DNA from: Granulosicoccus sp.
Lineage (GTDB): Bacteria > Pseudomonadota > Gammaproteobacteria > Granulosicoccales > Granulosicoccaceae
Assembly (NCBI GenBank): GCA_023300375.1
Contig: JALZWO010000014.1
Span: 1 to 64,000, forward strand
Direction of reading: 5' to 3'
DNA: 64,000 nucleotides
In this document: positions 35 through 16,053 of the stretch, one piece after another
Position numbering within the stretch: the stretch's first letter is position 1
Layout of the letters: each line of letters opens with the position of its first letter
The notes under the pieces: model-generated
What the model saw: only the letters and a program-made list of their open reading frames with translations
Databases searched by the model: none
What the model was told of the DNA's origin: nothing
Program-made: the position numbers and the translations under genes

Positions 35-1111
35 TTATAGACCGTTTTTAACTATTCCGCCTTGCATGTGGAACTCCTTACAGGGACGACCGGTTAATAT
101 GCTTAAATCCACACCAGTAACAAACAATTGGCTTTGTAATGTGTGGAGTTGATCTACGAGATAGTTTGTGTGATTTTCATCCAATTCTGATGACAAGTCA
201 TCGCACAGAACCATGGGGCTAGCAATACCGGCCTCTTTGAGCACATCCAACTGTGATAAGTGAAGGACGTAGACTAGCGTTTTTTGTTGGCCTCTTGAAA
301 GCACCTGTTTAGCAGGTTTGTCATCGACCTTAATGGTTAACTCTGCCCGGTGAGGCCCATCTGTTGTGGTTTTCATTCGTCGATGGTAGGTGAGGTTCTT
401 TGTCAGTGCAGTTTCTAACGAATGATTGACGTCCCATCCTGGTCGATAAGAGAGTTCCACGTGGAACACCTCGTTCAATAGACCCCATCTGCGTTGTAAA
501 GCACTGTTGAGTAGAGCAGTGAATTCGGTTCTTGCTTGATGAAGCTCGAGTCCAGCTGCCAATAAGGGCGAATTCCAAGTGTCGATATCTTTATCAAGCG
601 CAGATTCACGCAGTAATTGGTTGCGTTGAGATAGCGAACGTTTGTACTGCCCCCAAACAGGCATAAACCGAGGTTTCACGTGGAACAGTCCCCAATCTAG
701 AAAACGTCTCCTTTCTTCTGGCCCATCCTGAACTAATTGGTGACTTTCAGGAGAGAGAACCTTTACCGGCATTAGCCTGGCAATCTCGGCTTGAGATTTA
801 ATATCTTCAAAATTCAAACGGAAATTAACGCTTCCATCTCTGAGGCGTTCACAACCCACACGATATTCTCGCTCAGATCGCTCATCATAGAACTTGGCCG
901 TGAGTCGAAGGCTGGGCGCATTGTGCGCCATAAGCTCTCGCGGGCGTCGAGTTCTAAAGGTATGTCCAGTAGCAAGGCATTGTATGGCCTCAAGAATAGA
1001 GCTTTTACCCGTTCCATTATTGCCAGTAATGAGGTTCAGAGTAGGGTGAGGTGCTACTGACAGATCAACGAGACAACGAACATCAGTTGCCTCGAAACTT
1101 GACAGAATCAC
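35..1111 (-). CDS. recF: RecF, DNA repair and replication ATPase
   Basis: RecF is an SMC-like ATPase that binds gapped DNA and, with RecO and RecR, loads RecA during recombinational repair. The 358-residue product has the Walker A motif GNNGTGKSS at about residues 30-38 and a C-terminal ABC-type region with LSRGQQKTL and VLCDDLSSELD (Walker B). Length matches the family. The start is GTG at 1111-1109, and it overlaps the dnaN stop TGA (1110-1108) in a GTGA junction, which suggests translational coupling to dnaN. Two parS-like palindromes lie inside the coding sequence (see separate entries). In this class gyrB usually follows, which would lie just left of the window. Confidence 0.97.
   Translation of the reverse strand: MILSSFEATDVRCLVDLSVAPHPTLNLITGNNGTGKSSILEAIQCLATGHTFRTRRPRELMAHNAPSLRLTAKFYDERSEREYRVGCERLRDGSVNFRLNFEDIKSQAEIARLMPVKVLSPESHQLVQDGPEERRRFLDWGLFHVKPRFMPVWGQYKRSLSQRNQLLRESALDKDIDTWNSPLLAAGLELHQARTEFTALLNSALQRRWGLLNEVFHVELSYRPGWDVNHSLETALTKNLTYHRRMKTTTDGPHRAELTIKVDDKPAKQVLSRGQQKTLVYVLHLSQLDVLKEAGIASPMVLCDDLSSELDENHTNYLVDQLHTLQSQLFVTGVDLSILTGRPCKEFHMQGGIVKNGL
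454..467. promoter_or_regulatory. parS-like ParB-binding palindrome
   Basis: GTTCCACGTGGAAC is a perfect 14-bp palindrome that matches the centromere-like parS sequence known from Pseudomonas and relatives. It lies within recF, near oriC and about 14 kb from parAB. ParB binding is inferred, not shown. Confidence 0.75.
673..686. promoter_or_regulatory. second parS-like site
   Basis: GTTTCACGTGGAAC differs at one position from the palindrome at 454-467 and combines the GTTTCAC and GTGGAAC half-sites seen in bacterial parS sequences. It lies 219 bp from the first site, also inside recF. The pair looks like a small ParB loading cluster close to the origin. Confidence 0.65.
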
Positions 1112-2220
1112 AGACGCATAGGCATGACAACATATTTGCTGTCGTTATTATCGTTGGAATCGGGTGTGATCAGTGTGCTGCTATTACCGTCCTTAACGAT
1201 AATTCGAGCATTCTCTACTTCCAGACTATTAAGTACATCCAGCAGATAGGTGACGTTAAACCCTATTTCTGTTGATTCGCCCTGGTAGTCTACTTCGAGT
1301 TCATCAATAGCTTCTTCTTGATCAGGATTGTTACTGGAAACAGTTAAAAGCCCAGCTTGCAGTGCGAAACGCACACCACGAAATTTTTCGTTAGAAAGTA
1401 CTGATGCGCGAACTAATGATTGTTTTAAGGTCTGGCAGTCGATAACTAATTCCTTGTTACCGTCGATTGGGATCACACGATTGTAGTCAGGAAATCGTCC
1501 ATCGATTAACTTTGTAGTGATACGAACACCGCCAACCTGTACTTGAAGGTGTTGAGGACTCACCAATAATCCTACTTTGTCGTTTGTGTCGGTACTTCCC
1601 AACAGACGTTGTAGTTCGCCGACACTTTTCCTTGGAATAATTGCCCTGACAGGCATTTCTGGATCGGCTTCCGTAGTGCACTGAGAATAAGCGAGTCGAT
1701 GACCATCTGTTGCCACACATGACAGTCTGTCTGCACCGATCTCAAGCAACATACCATTAAGATAAAATCTAACATCTTGCTGGGCCATTGAGAACGCAGT
1801 ATTCCGAATGCATCGATGCAGATCGGTGGCTGTGAGTTGAACACTTTGGGGTTCTTTCAGTGGTGCTGTTTTTGGGAACTGATCGGCGGGGAGTGTCGCT
1901 AGAGTGAAACGGCTACGTCCGGATTTAAAAACAACCTTTTCACCTGTCAAGGTAAATTCTATACGCGCTGAGTCTGAGAGGTTCTTACAAATTTCCAATA
2001 GCTTTCGAGCTGGCACAGTGGTCGATCCTGTTTGATCAATGTGCATCTCCACTCTGGCTTGCATCTCTATCTCAGAATCACTGGCTGTGATTGTCAGATA
2101 TCCATCATCTGCTTCGATTAGAACATTGCCTAAAACAGGGGAGGTTTGCTTGCGCTCAACCGCTCCTACTACATGCTGTAGCGGAGAGAGCAAAGATTCA
2201 CGTTGTACACTGAATTTCAT
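1108..2220 (-). CDS. dnaN: DNA polymerase III beta sliding clamp
   Basis: DnaN forms the ring-shaped dimer that tethers DNA polymerase III and other enzymes to DNA. The 370-residue product begins MKFSVQRESLLSPLQHV and ends with VVMPMRL, the typical clamp C-terminus that helps form the binding pocket for partner peptides. Full family length with three clamp domains implied. It lies directly left of the origin and overlaps recF by four bases, so dnaN and recF are probably co-transcribed. Its own start ATG is only about 30 bp from the left origin module, so its promoter must sit within the origin region. Confidence 0.98.
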   Translation of the reverse strand: MKFSVQRESLLSPLQHVVGAVERKQTSPVLGNVLIEADDGYLTITASDSEIEMQARVEMHIDQTGSTTVPARKLLEICKNLSDSARIEFTLTGEKVVFKSGRSRFTLATLPADQFPKTAPLKEPQSVQLTATDLHRCIRNTAFSMAQQDVRFYLNGMLLEIGADRLSCVATDGHRLAYSQCTTEADPEMPVRAIIPRKSVGELQRLLGSTDTNDKVGLLVSPQHLQVQVGGVRITTKLIDGRFPDYNRVIPIDGNKELVIDCQTLKQSLVRASVLSNEKFRGVRFALQAGLLTVSSNNPDQEEAIDELEVDYQGESTEIGFNVTYLLDVLNSLEVENARIIVKDGNSSTLITPDSNDNNDSKYVVMPMRL

Positions 2221-2370
2221 GGGCTAAATAAAGACCGTGTTTTTTTATAAAAGATGTTTACTGTTATTACTCAACAACAACTTTGTTGATAAGTTCGTAA
2301 AGTACTTATATTTCAATAGTTTATATGTAAAAAAGACCCTGTATAAACTGATTTACAAGGTTGCACAAGC

Positions 2371-2379
2371 TGTGGATAA
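2371..2379 (-). promoter_or_regulatory. DnaA box (perfect), left module
   Basis: TGTGGATAA is the exact complement of the DnaA box TTATCCACA. Confidence 0.88.
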
Positions 2380-2439
2380 TTCACCTTCACCATGTCCTCT
2401 GCAAAAGTGTTCTCTTGATGATCGGAAGTTATACGTGAG

Positions 2440-2448
2440 TTATCCACA
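2440..2448 (+). promoter_or_regulatory. DnaA box (perfect), left module
   Basis: TTATCCACA is an exact DnaA box, facing the box at 2371-2379. Confidence 0.88.
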
Positions 2449-2981
2449 GATATACACTATGAGAACGACTTATAACTTGAACCTAGATCAACAGGAATTA
2501 AAGCAGCCTTTGTAATATCGTAAATCGGCCATTTTGGAATACATTTACCTCTATCTCATTGACTTAAGAAAAGTGGCCGACCAATTGCAAAGTAACCTGC
2601 AAGCGCTGACCTCAAATCCTAGAATTCTTCTACTCGTCAATTTGTTAAGGCAACGTTGTTCAAATCCAAGTTAATTTAGAATACAGATTGTTTCTTGAGT
2701 GGCAGAACATATTAGTTAAGTCACTTTTATCTGCTTGAAAAAAATATTGAGGTTGTTGATGTGTTGGATCCAACCGCGCGCTTATTCGCCATAGGGACAA
2801 ACAGATATTGAACTTGTGCACCAAATTTAACAAGCTAATAAGAGAAGAGGTTTTTATACAAAAGATTATTACTACTATTACTGAACAATAACTCCGTGGA
2901 TAAGATGACTAAGAATTTTAAAATCAGTAGCTTGGAAGTGAAAAATGGCATGTATAAACGCCTACTTATTGCCTAATAAGC

Positions 2982-2990
2982 TGTGGATAA
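2982..2990 (-). promoter_or_regulatory. DnaA box (perfect), right module
   Basis: TGTGGATAA is the exact complement of the DnaA box. It is the counterpart of 2371-2379 at an offset of 611 bp. Confidence 0.88.
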
Positions 2991-3049
2991 ATTACAGCCG
3001 AAAGTGCTATTCGAATTTAATCCAACGGTTAAAGCGTTTAATACTAAAG

Positions 3050-3058
3050 TTATCCACA
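3050..3058 (+). promoter_or_regulatory. DnaA box (perfect), right module
   Basis: TTATCCACA is an exact DnaA box, the counterpart of 2440-2448 at an offset of 610 bp. It lies about 30 bp beyond the dnaA stop codon. Confidence 0.88.
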
Positions 3059-3091
3059 GCAGTAAATAGGCAAATTTTGAAGCGTTAACGC

Positions 3092-4498
3092 TCAACTGGA
3101 CAAGGTTCTGTGTAGGTTCTTGTAGTCTTCATTAACATTTTCGTCATTGTCCCGAAGCTCCACTACTTTTTTACAAGCATGCAATACGGTGGTGTGATCT
3201 CTCCCACCAAAAGCCCTACCGATCTCAGGAAGGCTTTTACTGGTCAATTCCTTGGCTAGCGCCATAGCTATTTGACGCGGTCTGGCCAGTGACCGTGCTC
3301 GACTTTTGCCTGACAAATCAGCCAATCTGATTTTGTAGTACTCGGCAACGGTTTTCTGAATATTCTCTATAGATACTGCACGCCCTTGCACTGCTAGTAG
3401 GTCAGCTAACGCTACGCGAGTGGTGTCCAAGTTAATTGGGTCTGCATTCAGTTGACTGTAAGCAATGACACGACGCAATGAGCCCTCGAGCTCTCGTACG
3501 TTGCTGCGAATCCGATTAGCGATAAAAAAGCTGACTTCAGAGGGCAGTTCGATGCCCATGGATTCGGCCTTGCTGTTGAGAATAGCAACCCGCATCTCTA
3601 GCTCAGGGGGCTCAATGGCCACTGATAATCCCCAGCCAAAGCGAGTTTTCAAACGTTCCTCTAATCCATTAATCTCCTTTGGGTACCGATCACACGTGAG
3701 GACAATTTGTTGTTCACCTTCGAACAAGGCATTAAAGTTGTGAAAAAATTCTTCTTGCGTTTGTTCTTTATTTGCAAAGAACTGAATGTCATCCACCAGC
3801 AGGGCGTCTAGGCCACGGTAAAATGCTTTGAAATCTGACATTTTGTTGTGTTGAAGTGCAGATACCATCTCTTGCACGTAGCGTTCAGAGTTGAGATACA
3901 TAACTCGAGCATCAGGTTTGTTGGCGATGATCTCATTACCGATTGCCTGCATCATATGGGTCTTACCCAAACCTGATGCACCGTAAATCAAATACGGATT
4001 GTACGCGGTGCCCGGGCTTGAGCCAATTTGCAGAGCAGCTGCCCGTCCTAGTTGATTGCTTTTTCCGGCGACGAGAGTTTTAAAGCTGAACTGAGGCTTG
4101 AGATTTGAATGTTGTAAGTTGGGCCTAACAGTTTGCGCAATTTGCGACAAGGCAGGCGCATTGCCTGGTCGGGTATGGTTTGGTTTTGCATCCAGCGATA
4201 GATTCGTGTTCTCTTCTTGTTCCTGTTGCGAGGAAGCTTCAACGCCCAAGAGATCAGAACCAATGATGAACATGATTTCGATCTTTTTGGGATGCGCTAG
4301 TTGGGTAATTATTTCCTGTATGCGGGCGAGAAAACTGCTCCGCACCGTGTCAAGTACGAATCGGTTTGGCGCAAGTATGCTCAACACGCCGTCAAGATAA
4401 TGAGCTTGTAATGGTCTGATCCAAGTGTTGAGCTGTTGATCAGACAGTTCGCCTTCTAGCTGCTGAAGACAACGATCCCAAAGTGATTCGCCTAACAA
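3092..4498 (-). CDS. dnaA: Chromosomal replication initiator DnaA
   Basis: DnaA binds DnaA boxes in oriC and, with ATP, melts the origin and loads helicase. The 468-residue product has domain I (MLGESLWDRCLQQLEGEL onward), a Gln/Glu/Asn-rich linker near 90-130, an AAA+ core with Walker A GASGLGKTH at about 173-181 and LLVDDIQFF (Walker B), and the C-terminal DNA-binding signature GRDHTTVLHACKKV near residue 432. The start is TTG at 4498-4496: its upstream GGAGACACGT gives a good ribosome-binding site, and the N-terminus lines up with other DnaA proteins. The gene points towards oriC. Confidence 0.97.
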   Translation of the reverse strand: MLGESLWDRCLQQLEGELSDQQLNTWIRPLQAHYLDGVLSILAPNRFVLDTVRSSFLARIQEIITQLAHPKKIEIMFIIGSDLLGVEASSQQEQEENTNLSLDAKPNHTRPGNAPALSQIAQTVRPNLQHSNLKPQFSFKTLVAGKSNQLGRAAALQIGSSPGTAYNPYLIYGASGLGKTHMMQAIGNEIIANKPDARVMYLNSERYVQEMVSALQHNKMSDFKAFYRGLDALLVDDIQFFANKEQTQEEFFHNFNALFEGEQQIVLTCDRYPKEINGLEERLKTRFGWGLSVAIEPPELEMRVAILNSKAESMGIELPSEVSFFIANRIRSNVRELEGSLRRVIAYSQLNADPINLDTTRVALADLLAVQGRAVSIENIQKTVAEYYKIRLADLSGKSRARSLARPRQIAMALAKELTSKSLPEIGRAFGGRDHTTVLHACKKVVELRDNDENVNEDYKNLHRTLSS

Positions 4499-9235: not shown

Positions 9236-11035
9236 TCAGTTTGAAAGGCCAAATTGCATAGCTGCAAGTTTTGCGTACAAGCCGCCATTATCTAACAGCT
9301 CTTGATGCGAACCACTATCTACAACCCGTCCTTGATCCATGACGATGATCTTGTCAGCATTAATAATAGTGGCTAGTCGGTGAGCAATGACCAATGTGGT
9401 TCTACCGCTCATTGCTCTGTCGAGTGCTTTTTGTACTTTGGCTTCACTTTGAGCATCTAAAGCACTAGTGGCTTCATCGAGTAACAGCAGAGGTGGATTT
9501 TTTAATAGTGCTCTGGCTATTGATAAGCGCTGTCTCTGACCGCCCGATAGTCGCACGCCTTTTTCACCAAGGTAGGTGTCGAAGCCCTCTGGAAGTCGAT
9601 CAATAAACTCGAGCGCTTGTGCATCTTTTGCTGCAGCTTGTACCTGTTCAAAGCTAGCATCTAGCTTCCCGTAACGTATATTGTTAGTGACATTGTCGGA
9701 GAACACGATGCTTTCCTGCGACACCAACCCTACAGTATTGCGTAATGCAGATAATGTCAGTGTGTCTATGGCTGAATTATTTAAAAGGATACAACCAGAT
9801 TGAGGGTCGTAAAATCGAGATAATAGCTGCAATACAGTGGTTTTGCCGGCACCTGATGGGCCTACCAATGCAACTGTAGTACCAGGTTGTAAATCAAAAC
9901 TGATGTTTTGTAAGGCAGGAGTATCGGGTCGACTGGGATAGTTAAAAGACACATCCATGAGTTGCAGCGACGCACCAGCCTCACTACTTGTCTTAAGTTT
10001 TTGCTGGCCTGAAGTTATCGTAGCAGAATCTTGCATGAGCTCTACTAATCGCTCGGTAGCACCAGCAGCTCGTTGCACGTCGCCGAATACCTCAGCCAGT
10101 ACACCAGTAGAGCCTGCAACCAAGGCTGCATACAACATAAATTGCGTAAGTAATCCGGCACTCATGCGTTGATCACTCACTGCTTGTGCACCTAGCCATA
10201 GAACAAAAACAATGGAACCAAAAACAAGCGTAATAGCCAACGCTGTAAGGTAGGAGCGATTACGATTTCGTTTAAGTGCACTTTCAAACGCGTGGTCAGC
10301 GGCTAGGTCATAGCGCTGCGATTCCATATCCTCACGCACATAACTTTGAACAGTCTGCATAGCGTTCAAGGTTTCATTGGCCAATGCACCAGTATCTGCT
10401 AGTTTGTCTTGTGAGTCGCGTGATAGTTTTCTAACACGTCTGCCGATGATCAGAATGGGCAGAACCACGACGATTAACAGTGCAACGATAATGCTCGCCA
10501 GTGTGGGACTGGACCAAATCATCATGATTAGTGCACCTGCAAACAACAGGGCGTTTCTTAAGCCAAGCGATATGCTCGAACCAATCAGTGATTGAATCAA
10601 TGTGGTATCGCTTGATAAGCGAGACTGCACTTCACCTGTGCGTAAGGTTTCGAAAAACACAGGGTCCTGTCGTAACACTTTCGAAAAAACGCGTTTGCGT
10701 AGATCGGCAGTGATTCTATCTCCCAGCCACGATACGCAGTAAAAGCGCGTGGCTGTCGCTAAGGCCAATACGATTGCCACACCGAACAGCGTAAGAAATA
10801 CACGGTTTATATCTGCTGAACCAATGCCTTGTAGATTGTCGGCAGTGCTGAAGCCTCGGTCAATCAGTAATCTAAAGACGGCAGGAATGGTCAGCGTAGC
10901 CGCAGCCGCCACTAACAACGCTGTGGCTGCAACCAATACTCTTAGCCGATAGGGTCTCAAAAAAGGCTGTAGTTGTTTTAACGTGTCCCAAGTTGATTTC
11001 TCAGAAGCCGAGGGTGTTTTTTTGCTAATTTTCAA
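9236..11035 (-). CDS. ABC exporter, MsbA-related (fused TM and ATPase)
   Basis: This is a half-size ABC exporter that would work as a homodimer in the inner membrane. The 599-residue product has a six-helix transmembrane domain in its first 330 residues, then an ATPase domain with Walker A GPSGAGKTT, signature LSGGQRQRLSIARAL, Walker B LLLLDEATSALD and the switch histidine in LVIAHRLAT. It resembles the MsbA-related subfamily found in many proteobacteria; the substrate is unknown and lipid or drug export is only a guess. The start appears to be TTG at 11035 without a clear ribosome-binding site, so the N-terminus is uncertain. It lies alone and opposite to its neighbours. Confidence 0.88.
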   Translation of the reverse strand: MKISKKTPSASEKSTWDTLKQLQPFLRPYRLRVLVAATALLVAAAATLTIPAVFRLLIDRGFSTADNLQGIGSADINRVFLTLFGVAIVLALATATRFYCVSWLGDRITADLRKRVFSKVLRQDPVFFETLRTGEVQSRLSSDTTLIQSLIGSSISLGLRNALLFAGALIMMIWSSPTLASIIVALLIVVVLPILIIGRRVRKLSRDSQDKLADTGALANETLNAMQTVQSYVREDMESQRYDLAADHAFESALKRNRNRSYLTALAITLVFGSIVFVLWLGAQAVSDQRMSAGLLTQFMLYAALVAGSTGVLAEVFGDVQRAAGATERLVELMQDSATITSGQQKLKTSSEAGASLQLMDVSFNYPSRPDTPALQNISFDLQPGTTVALVGPSGAGKTTVLQLLSRFYDPQSGCILLNNSAIDTLTLSALRNTVGLVSQESIVFSDNVTNNIRYGKLDASFEQVQAAAKDAQALEFIDRLPEGFDTYLGEKGVRLSGGQRQRLSIARALLKNPPLLLLDEATSALDAQSEAKVQKALDRAMSGRTTLVIAHRLATIINADKIIVMDQGRVVDSGSHQELLDNGGLYAKLAAMQFGLSN

Positions 11036-14057: not shown

Positions 14058-14996
14058 ATGAGTCGGATAATTGCCATTGCAAACCAAAAGGGTGGGGTTG
14101 GAAAAACCACCACTACCGTCAATTTGTCGGCTGCACTTGTCAGCATGAACAAGCGTGTACTGCTGATCGATCTAGATCCGCAAGGCAATGCCACTATGGG
14201 GTGTGGCATTGATAAGCACGAGGTAGAAAAAGGCATATTCGATGTGTTGGTCGACGGCATGAGCGTGAATGAAGCTCAGCAAAAGGCGGCCGAAAACACA
14301 TGCGCTGTATTGGCAGCTAATAGCGATCTGACTGCAGCTGAGGTTGAGCTCATGGATATGGACGAGCGAGAACAGCGATTAAACAATGCGCTGCAGCTTG
14401 TTCGCCAAGACTATGATTTCATCTTAATTGACTGTCCGCCGTCGCTGAACATCCTGACTTTGAACGCATTTGTAGCCGCTGACAGCGTTTTGGTCCCCGT
14501 TCAATGTGAATACTATGCACTTGAAGGGCTGTCAGCTCTACTAGAGACCGTTGAAGGTGTTCGTGAAAGCGTTAATCCTGACATCGAGATTGAAGGTTTG
14601 CTGCGAACCATGTACGACGGACGGAATAAGCTAGGGGTGGAAGTATCGGCCCAGCTTATTGAGCACTTCGGTGAACAGGTGTTCAAAACCGTAGTGCCGC
14701 GTAATGTTCGATTGGCAGAAGCCCCTAGTCACGGCCTTTCAATCATGGAATACGACAACACCTCCAGGGGAGCGCTGGCGTATCTGGCCCTTGCCGGAGA
14801 AATAGTACGCAAGCTAGCGCGCGCTGTGCATAGCGTTGCACAAACGCCTTCTCTAGTTGAGCCAGCGGCTGACTCGGCCGACACACCGTCAACCGAGGTG
14901 GCAAACCTTTCATCTGCGGAGGTTGCAGATTCCCTTCCGAGCACTGCAACTACTGACCAACCTTCCTTAAACGATACCGAGTCTGTCAATGGCTAA
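14058..14996 (+). CDS. parA: Chromosome partition ATPase ParA (Soj)
   Basis: ParA is a deviant Walker ATPase whose gradient on the nucleoid moves ParB-parS complexes apart after replication. The 312-residue product has the deviant Walker A motif KGGVGKTT at residues 11-18, LLIDLDPQGNAT and LIDCPPSLN. After about residue 255 the sequence becomes a Ser/Thr/Pro/Ala-rich tail of roughly 55 residues that is longer than typical chromosomal ParA proteins (about 260 residues) and is probably disordered. Its end overlaps the parB start by 8 bp. Confidence 0.95.
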   Translation: MSRIIAIANQKGGVGKTTTTVNLSAALVSMNKRVLLIDLDPQGNATMGCGIDKHEVEKGIFDVLVDGMSVNEAQQKAAENTCAVLAANSDLTAAEVELMDMDEREQRLNNALQLVRQDYDFILIDCPPSLNILTLNAFVAADSVLVPVQCEYYALEGLSALLETVEGVRESVNPDIEIEGLLRTMYDGRNKLGVEVSAQLIEHFGEQVFKTVVPRNVRLAEAPSHGLSIMEYDNTSRGALAYLALAGEIVRKLARAVHSVAQTPSLVEPAADSADTPSTEVANLSSAEVADSLPSTATTDQPSLNDTESVNG

Positions 14997-16053
14997 ACGA
15001 CCTCGTATGGGCCGTAACCTCAATGCGTTGCTCGGCAGTAATGCCAAGGATCGGAAAACTCAAACAGCTGCGCAAGCCGATACCACAGCCGATACAGATG
15101 CTGACAGTGTTGCAGGTGTGGATTTTACAACGGCTCCTTTGGACAAGACAGAGCCTGAAGTTGCTGTAAAACAAGAAAAGCCGCAGCAGGAGGTTAGCGT
15201 TTCTACTGTGGTGAGCGGTGAGGCCAAAGAGCCCGAAAAAGATAATAATAAAGCACTTACCAGCAGCACATCAGAACAGCTGATTATGCTTGGCGTTGAG
15301 AAAATCCGCCGTGGAACCTATCAGCCGCGACGCCTGTTTGATCAGGAACTTTTACAAGAGCTAGCTGATTCAATCAGAGCCGAAGGCATGATCCAACCGA
15401 TCATCGTACGACCGTTTGCTGACGGCTACGAGTTGGTTGCGGGTGAACGACGCTGGCGTGCTTCACAGTTAGCAGGTATCGATCGTATTCCTGCCATTGT
15501 GCGTGAAATGGAAGACCGATCGGTGGCGGCAGTGTCTGTCATAGAGAACATTCAACGTAAAGATCTCAATCCATTAGAGGAAGCCGAAGCATTTGCGCGT
15601 CTTTGTGACGAATTCGGAATGACTCATAAAGCGGTCGCTGAAGCGGTCGGGCGTTCAAGAGCCTCGGTAACCAATCTGATGCGCTTGTTAGAGCTGCATG
15701 ATGAGGTTAAGGTCATGGTCGACAAGAGCGAGTTAGAGATGGGACATGCCCGCGCTTTACTAGGTGCGCCACGTCACGTCCAGCGTGATGTCGCTAGGCG
15801 CGTAGTCCAGCAGGCAATGACAGTACGAGCCACAGAGGCCTACGTTCGCTCATTGGATGAAGACGGTCAAGAGGTACGTGCTAGCCCTACTGATTCAGCT
15901 TTTGATCCAGATATTGAGCGCTTAAGCAAAAAGCTGGGAGAAACCCTAGGGGCGAAGGTGCAGATTTCACACAAGGGAAACGGGGCGGGAAAACTTCAGA
16001 TCAGCTACTCCTCTGTCAGCGAGCTTCAGGGAATACTAGCGCACATTAAATAA
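14989..16053 (+). CDS. parB: Chromosome partition protein ParB
   Basis: ParB is a CTP-dependent clamp that loads at parS sites and spreads along DNA. The 354-residue product has a basic N-terminal ParA-contact segment (AKRPRMGRNLNALLGS), an Ala/Thr/Glu/Lys-rich linker near 20-95, then the ParB core with EKIRRGTYQPRR, the CTPase motif region AGERRWRASQLAG and VIENIQRKDLNPLEEA, a helix-turn-helix (VAEAVGRSRASVTNLMRLL), and a C-terminal dimer domain. It starts inside the parA stop region, so the pair is coupled. Its likely targets are the parS-like sites in recF. Confidence 0.96.
   Translation: MAKRPRMGRNLNALLGSNAKDRKTQTAAQADTTADTDADSVAGVDFTTAPLDKTEPEVAVKQEKPQQEVSVSTVVSGEAKEPEKDNNKALTSSTSEQLIMLGVEKIRRGTYQPRRLFDQELLQELADSIRAEGMIQPIIVRPFADGYELVAGERRWRASQLAGIDRIPAIVREMEDRSVAAVSVIENIQRKDLNPLEEAEAFARLCDEFGMTHKAVAEAVGRSRASVTNLMRLLELHDEVKVMVDKSELEMGHARALLGAPRHVQRDVARRVVQQAMTVRATEAYVRSLDEDGQEVRASPTDSAFDPDIERLSKKLGETLGAKVQISHKGNGAGKLQISYSSVSELQGILAHIK

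Follow-up and report, generated by a model that had tools for sequence, protein, structure and literature searches.

The stretch of DNA analysed here, 64,000 nucleotides in its entirety and referred to as the window, carries within its recF gene two exact parS sites, A and B, which very probably serve this gammaproteobacterium as its chromosomal centromere (parS); binding of ParB, its sliding and segregation at these sites are extrapolated from established ParB biology. As far as can be read from sequence, the designation of A and B as parS is supported by the sites themselves, their scarcity in the genome, their proximity to oriC, the presence of a cognate ParB and codon-level conservation across the class. 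The element would be one of a known kind with a lineage-specific relocation, in which A stands at the known place, B at a new place, and a third position, C, retains a putative relic.

Two exact parS sites in recF

Site A (positions 673 to 686, minus strand) reads GTTTCACGTGGAAC on the forward strand; its sense 16-mer is TGTTCCACGTGAAACC, and it encodes the F-H-V-K in DWGLFHVKP of RecF. Site B (454 to 467, minus strand; forward GTTCCACGTGGAAC, sense 16-mer TGTTCCACGTGGAACT) encodes the F-H-V-E in NEVFHVEL. In recF sense, A is divided into codons as G-TTC-CAC-GTG-AAA-C and B as G-TTC-CAC-GTG-GAA-C, the reading frame being shared by both. The stretch at position C (61 to 74, minus strand; forward CTTGCATGTGGAAC, sense GTTCCACATGCAAG) encodes F-H-M-Q near the RecF C terminus. 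Compared with the 14-mer consensus GTTYCACGTGRAAC, A and B showed 0 mismatches and C showed 3. Both the coordinates of the two parS 14-mers and the third, degenerate match at 11 of 14 bases had been given in a preliminary description of this DNA, and they were borne out by these counts.

The draft genome (4.58 Mb in 247 contigs, 97.5% complete) was then searched for parS. Exact 14-mers occurred twice, as A and B, both in recF; with up to one mismatch to GTTNCACGTGNAAC, 10 places were found (2 only with 0 mismatches), as compared to 20 for a reversed control pattern. The preliminary description had named many scattered sites as the outcome that would speak against its reading, and the genome-wide search returned only these two. 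By our own arithmetic, about 0.07 exact occurrences of GTTYCACGTGRAAC are expected by chance in 4.58 Mb, and two were observed within 233 bp, which makes a chance origin untenable; chance was consequently rejected as the source of A and B, the only two exact matches in the genome being close together. A shuffle control (0.77 expected) tolerates 2 mismatches and is uninformative on exact sites. It is important to add that the first base of the window is base 1 of the contig and that gyrB is not on this contig. Because gyrB and its downstream flank are absent from it, another parS could be missing from the draft.

Surroundings of recF, oriC and parAB

The gene carrying the sites, recF (35 to 1111, minus strand), encodes 358 amino acids with a GTG start as called and matches Pfam SMC_N and TIGR00611. 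Next to it are dnaN, encoding the DNA polymerase III beta clamp (1108 to 2220, minus strand), the dnaN-dnaA gap of 871 bases (2221 to 3091, no strand assigned), which is the probable oriC, and dnaA (3092 to 4498, minus strand). Four perfect TTATCCACA DnaA boxes lie in the gap as two inverted pairs, starting at 2371, 2440, 2982 and 3050. Their distance to A and B is about 1.7-2.6 kb, so that the closeness to oriC described earlier holds, at a slightly shorter distance than the 2-3 kb then proposed. Farther away are parA (14058 to 14996, plus strand; AAA_31, CbiA) and a parB of chromosomal type (14989 to 16053, plus strand; ParB_N, HTH_ParB, ParB_C; TIGR00180 with an E-value of 5.9e-55). These lie about 13.4-14.5 kb from the sites, in agreement with the earlier estimate of about 14 kb.

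Two other features were observed in this region. Firstly, the dnaN-dnaA gap contains two diverged copies of an oriC-like segment (2221-2480 and 2830-3091), about 610 bases apart, with perfect DnaA boxes forming one inverted pair in each; the copies are identical at 153 of 256 aligned bases, as compared to a mean of 38% and a maximum of 43% in base-shuffled controls. Secondly, an ABC exporter gene (9236-11035, minus strand) is located between mnmE and mnmG and interrupts the otherwise conserved order yidC-mnmE-mnmG-rsmG-parAB.

Conservation of sites A and C across Gammaproteobacteria

For comparison, recF was taken from 256 gammaproteobacterial genomes, each counted once. The class sample consisted of the better-scoring matches listed (30 loci and 100 fetched), 8 entries from another search, and entries of the order (30 loci and 40 of the remaining listed full-length recF), lower-scoring and unlisted RecF entries being left out. 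Among the matches listed, 186 ParB-positive genomes lie outside the window's genus. Site A was exact in 130 of these and site C in 155; exact A or C was present in 166 and both in 119, 20 genomes had neither, and exact B was found in none (0/186). When one mismatch was tolerated, no site was present in 12 of 187 ParB-positive genomes, a scored set to which the genome of the window also belongs. Regarding density, 100 loci showed 1.43 exact parS per kb of recF (160 in 111,648 bases) and 0.031 per kb of flank (23 in 734,054 bases).

Altogether, judged from these sequences, placement of parS in recF is old and widespread in the class, with A and C as the probable ancestral positions, and one of the two sites would have moved within the gene in the window's genus. 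The comparison of recF codons in relatives that the preliminary description had proposed revealed parS at fixed codon positions across the class. In the case of one gammaproteobacterial metagenome-assembled genome (L319), an exact parS was observed at offset 720 of the recF ORF, which is not position A, B or C; this suggests another independent intragenic gain.

Codon constraint on recF

Sites A and C are both read in one frame as Phe-His-Val-Glu/Lys. The 14-mers could be by-products of RecF residues, meaning that the protein needs Phe-His-Val-Glu and that the usual codons for these residues spell a parS-like palindrome. Codon usage gives a measure of this. Among the ParB-positive class entries of the matches listed in which FHV[EK] is kept, parS was exact in 111 of 113 at A and likewise in 111 of 113 at C, whereas recF codon usage predicts 2.94 and 4.59, respectively (a duplicate, L189, from the same genome as L079, was dropped from this test). 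In the larger ParB-positive set with FHV[EK] kept, 130 of 140 were exact at A and 155 of 164 at C. The genus showed the same, with 12 of 13 exact at A and 16 of 17 at B where the residues are kept, against 0.20 and 0.31 expected by codon usage. The DNA at the sites is thus conserved beyond the requirement of the encoded protein. The earlier proposal that these codons are constrained by two functions gains its footing here, since DNA with FHV[EK] kept is exact parS far above the codon-usage expectation.

Genomes without chromosomal ParB bear on the same question. None of the 41 genomes assigned to the group without chromosomal ParB, of which 30 belong to one family and 11 to its order including E. 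coli, showed an exact A, B or C. The label of the family follows from a strong ParB match in 0 of 31 genomes (best 8.1e-16), and that of E. coli from the accessible part of PMC3909081, the E. coli control genome itself having matched the parB_part query. In these genomes, the residues at A have drifted to FHHH, FHQH or FHNE and those at C to FSVK, FRVE or FTVE; one of them (G423) keeps FHVK at C in DNA 4 mismatches from parS. Val and Glu are mostly gone at A, as is His-Val-Glu at C, which speaks against a need of the protein for the whole motif, but F and H at A and F at C are still common in ParB-negative RecF, which gives part of the motif a reason on the protein side. Since F is mostly retained there, as is H at A, parS seems to have arisen on residues already in use by RecF. 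In the matches listed, ParB was not called in 7 class genomes, several of which are incomplete assemblies, and 5 of the 7 had an exact site. When loss of parS was compared with loss of ParB on the tree, only 4 supported independent pairs were obtained and the sign test was not significant; six incomplete ParB-less genomes, G363 and 21 genus entries had been named for exclusion from this comparison and were dropped where present.

FHVE is also sometimes retained without parS, as in the ParB-positive genomes L208, L250 and L256, where parS has decayed, and residues can therefore persist for other reasons. Beyond the class, 20 recF of the other classes in this phylum, read with about 1.5 kb on each side, contained no parS 14-mer within one mismatch, and FHVE was present at C in just one of these. 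Pure protein constraint was rejected by the codon test, and we consider an origin of the 14-mers as by-products of RecF residues extremely improbable. We lean towards the view that FHVE-type motifs in gammaproteobacterial RecF mostly reflect translated parS and not a need of RecF, being released on loss of parS and with a new motif arising when the centromere moves, as in this genus. Codon-phased parS in recF throughout the class and RecF residues following a centromere appear to be undescribed; the literature searched, which did not cover Livny 2007, contained no prior account of a recF parS that is class-wide or codon-phased.

Turnover of sites within the genus

In 22 genomes of the window's genus (ParB was checked in 3 of them), the numbers of exact sites were 12 for A, 16 for B and 0 for C, and those of sites within one mismatch 20, 19 and 3, respectively. 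The RecF proteins of these genomes are as little as 43% identical to that of the window. At position C, the relatives L013, L014 and L017 show GTTCCACATGGAAC, and most of the class has exact parS there; positions 61-74 are best read as a decayed relic of an ancestral site C.

One could argue that only one site is functional in this organism, A being the real one and B a palindrome next to it that is transient and due to chance, all the more as a single parS near oriC suffices in P. aeruginosa (available part of PMC4368675). The absence of B from all 186 ParB-positive genomes outside the genus, among the matches listed, would fit with this, as would its absence from a clade of three genomes inside the genus. 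However, a transient palindrome is hard to reconcile with a site that, at RecF identities down to 43%, is exact in 16 of 22 genomes and differs by no more than one base in 19 of them, that is retained within one mismatch in L019 and L020, where A is lost, and whose codons are among the better conserved columns. We therefore regard a single functional site as very unlikely and retain A and B together as the candidate centromere.

With the sites masked, a tree of RecF called for at least two changes for B, three for C and one for A. In the sister genus (G168), A is exact, B is absent and C has decayed; in one of its members (L090), four exact GTTTCACGTGAAAC lie downstream of recF, spaced about 0.5-1.2 kb from one another. 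Three genomes of the genus that lack B group in a single clade, and two of these have parS or near-parS downstream of recF, the third ending at a contig end. The likely history is that C was lost or weakened early in the family or genus, that B was gained in the genus, and that one later loss of B occurred. This goes beyond the preliminary description in that 673-686 would be ancestral, 454-467 gained within the genus, and 61-74 the remnant of a second ancestral site.

Proposed explanation

In the mechanism that we propose, the parAB operon, at a distance of about 14 kb, would supply the ParB that loads at A and B. Loaded ParB would slide onto the flanking DNA, giving a complex that ParA would use to segregate the newly copied origin. 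The sites would lie inside recF because parS was anchored there, at positions A and C, early in the class. In this genus, C would have decayed and a new B would have arisen, in frame with A and 219 bp from it. Each site would fix RecF codons and, in part, RecF residues (F-H-V-E/K).

With respect to what is known, parS in recF has been published for P. aeruginosa; the arrangement described here is class-wide and codon-phased, with one lineage in which the centromere would have been relocated inside the gene. FHVE in RecF may serve as a warning against reading it as a functional protein motif. The recF sites may also offer a clear example from nature in which selection for a protein and for a centromere acts on one DNA stretch, and the class-wide arrangement allows to ask why parS was anchored in recF and not in nearby non-coding DNA.

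Comparison with known parS systems

According to the available part of PMC5521831, parS1 and parS2 of P. aeruginosa are located in recF. The accessible text of PMC3909081 likewise places the parS closest to oriC in recF, and describes par genes as absent from Enterobacteriaceae and Pasteurellaceae. Ten putative parS sites in PAO1 are given in the excerpts of PMC4368675, where intragenic parS were altered with the protein kept and one of parS1-4 sufficed. In the portion of PMC5098823 at hand, ParB ChIP-seq enrichment lay around the parS1-4 region and was gone once all four sites had been inactivated.

From these partial sources, parS1 (TGTTCCACGTGGAACC) fits site A, the codon after E beginning with CC, and parS2 (TGTTCCACGTGGAACA) fits site C, the next codon beginning with CA. 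The bases changed in Table 1 of PMC4368675, as far as available, are the third codon positions of x-FHVE. They would match the reading frame of A in the case of parS1 and of C in that of parS2, and in parS2 the G of the preceding codon was left unchanged, as a Met codon would require.

Among 25 Pseudomonas-titled loci, C was exact in 25 and A in 21, which is not a frequency since the search favours site A: the 80 named loci were fetched with DWG[VLT]FH[VEM][EKH] as one of two seeds, favouring recF with site A. In these named loci A was located by DW..F, and L300, L301, L302, L307, L340 and L369 score None despite matches near A. In Pseudomonas L332, L333 and L335, we observed recF with FHVE kept at A, two base changes that break parS, and an exact C.

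Like the window, P. aeruginosa has two parS inside recF near oriC, those of P. aeruginosa being of high affinity. In contrast to Pseudomonas, the window has A, retains no more than a relic at C (3 mismatches), and has an extra B that Pseudomonas lacks; compared to the ten putative sites of PAO1, no further exact parS was found in the window's draft genome. The perfect parS palindrome is TGTTTCACGTGAAACA, from which the window's 16-mers differ at the outer base and within the arms. The window resembles the consensus parS/ParB (Spo0J) system in its CACGTG-based palindrome, in the few copies by oriC and in the cognate parAB beside rsmG/mnmG, but differs from it in that its sites are wholly intragenic and codon-phased in recF.
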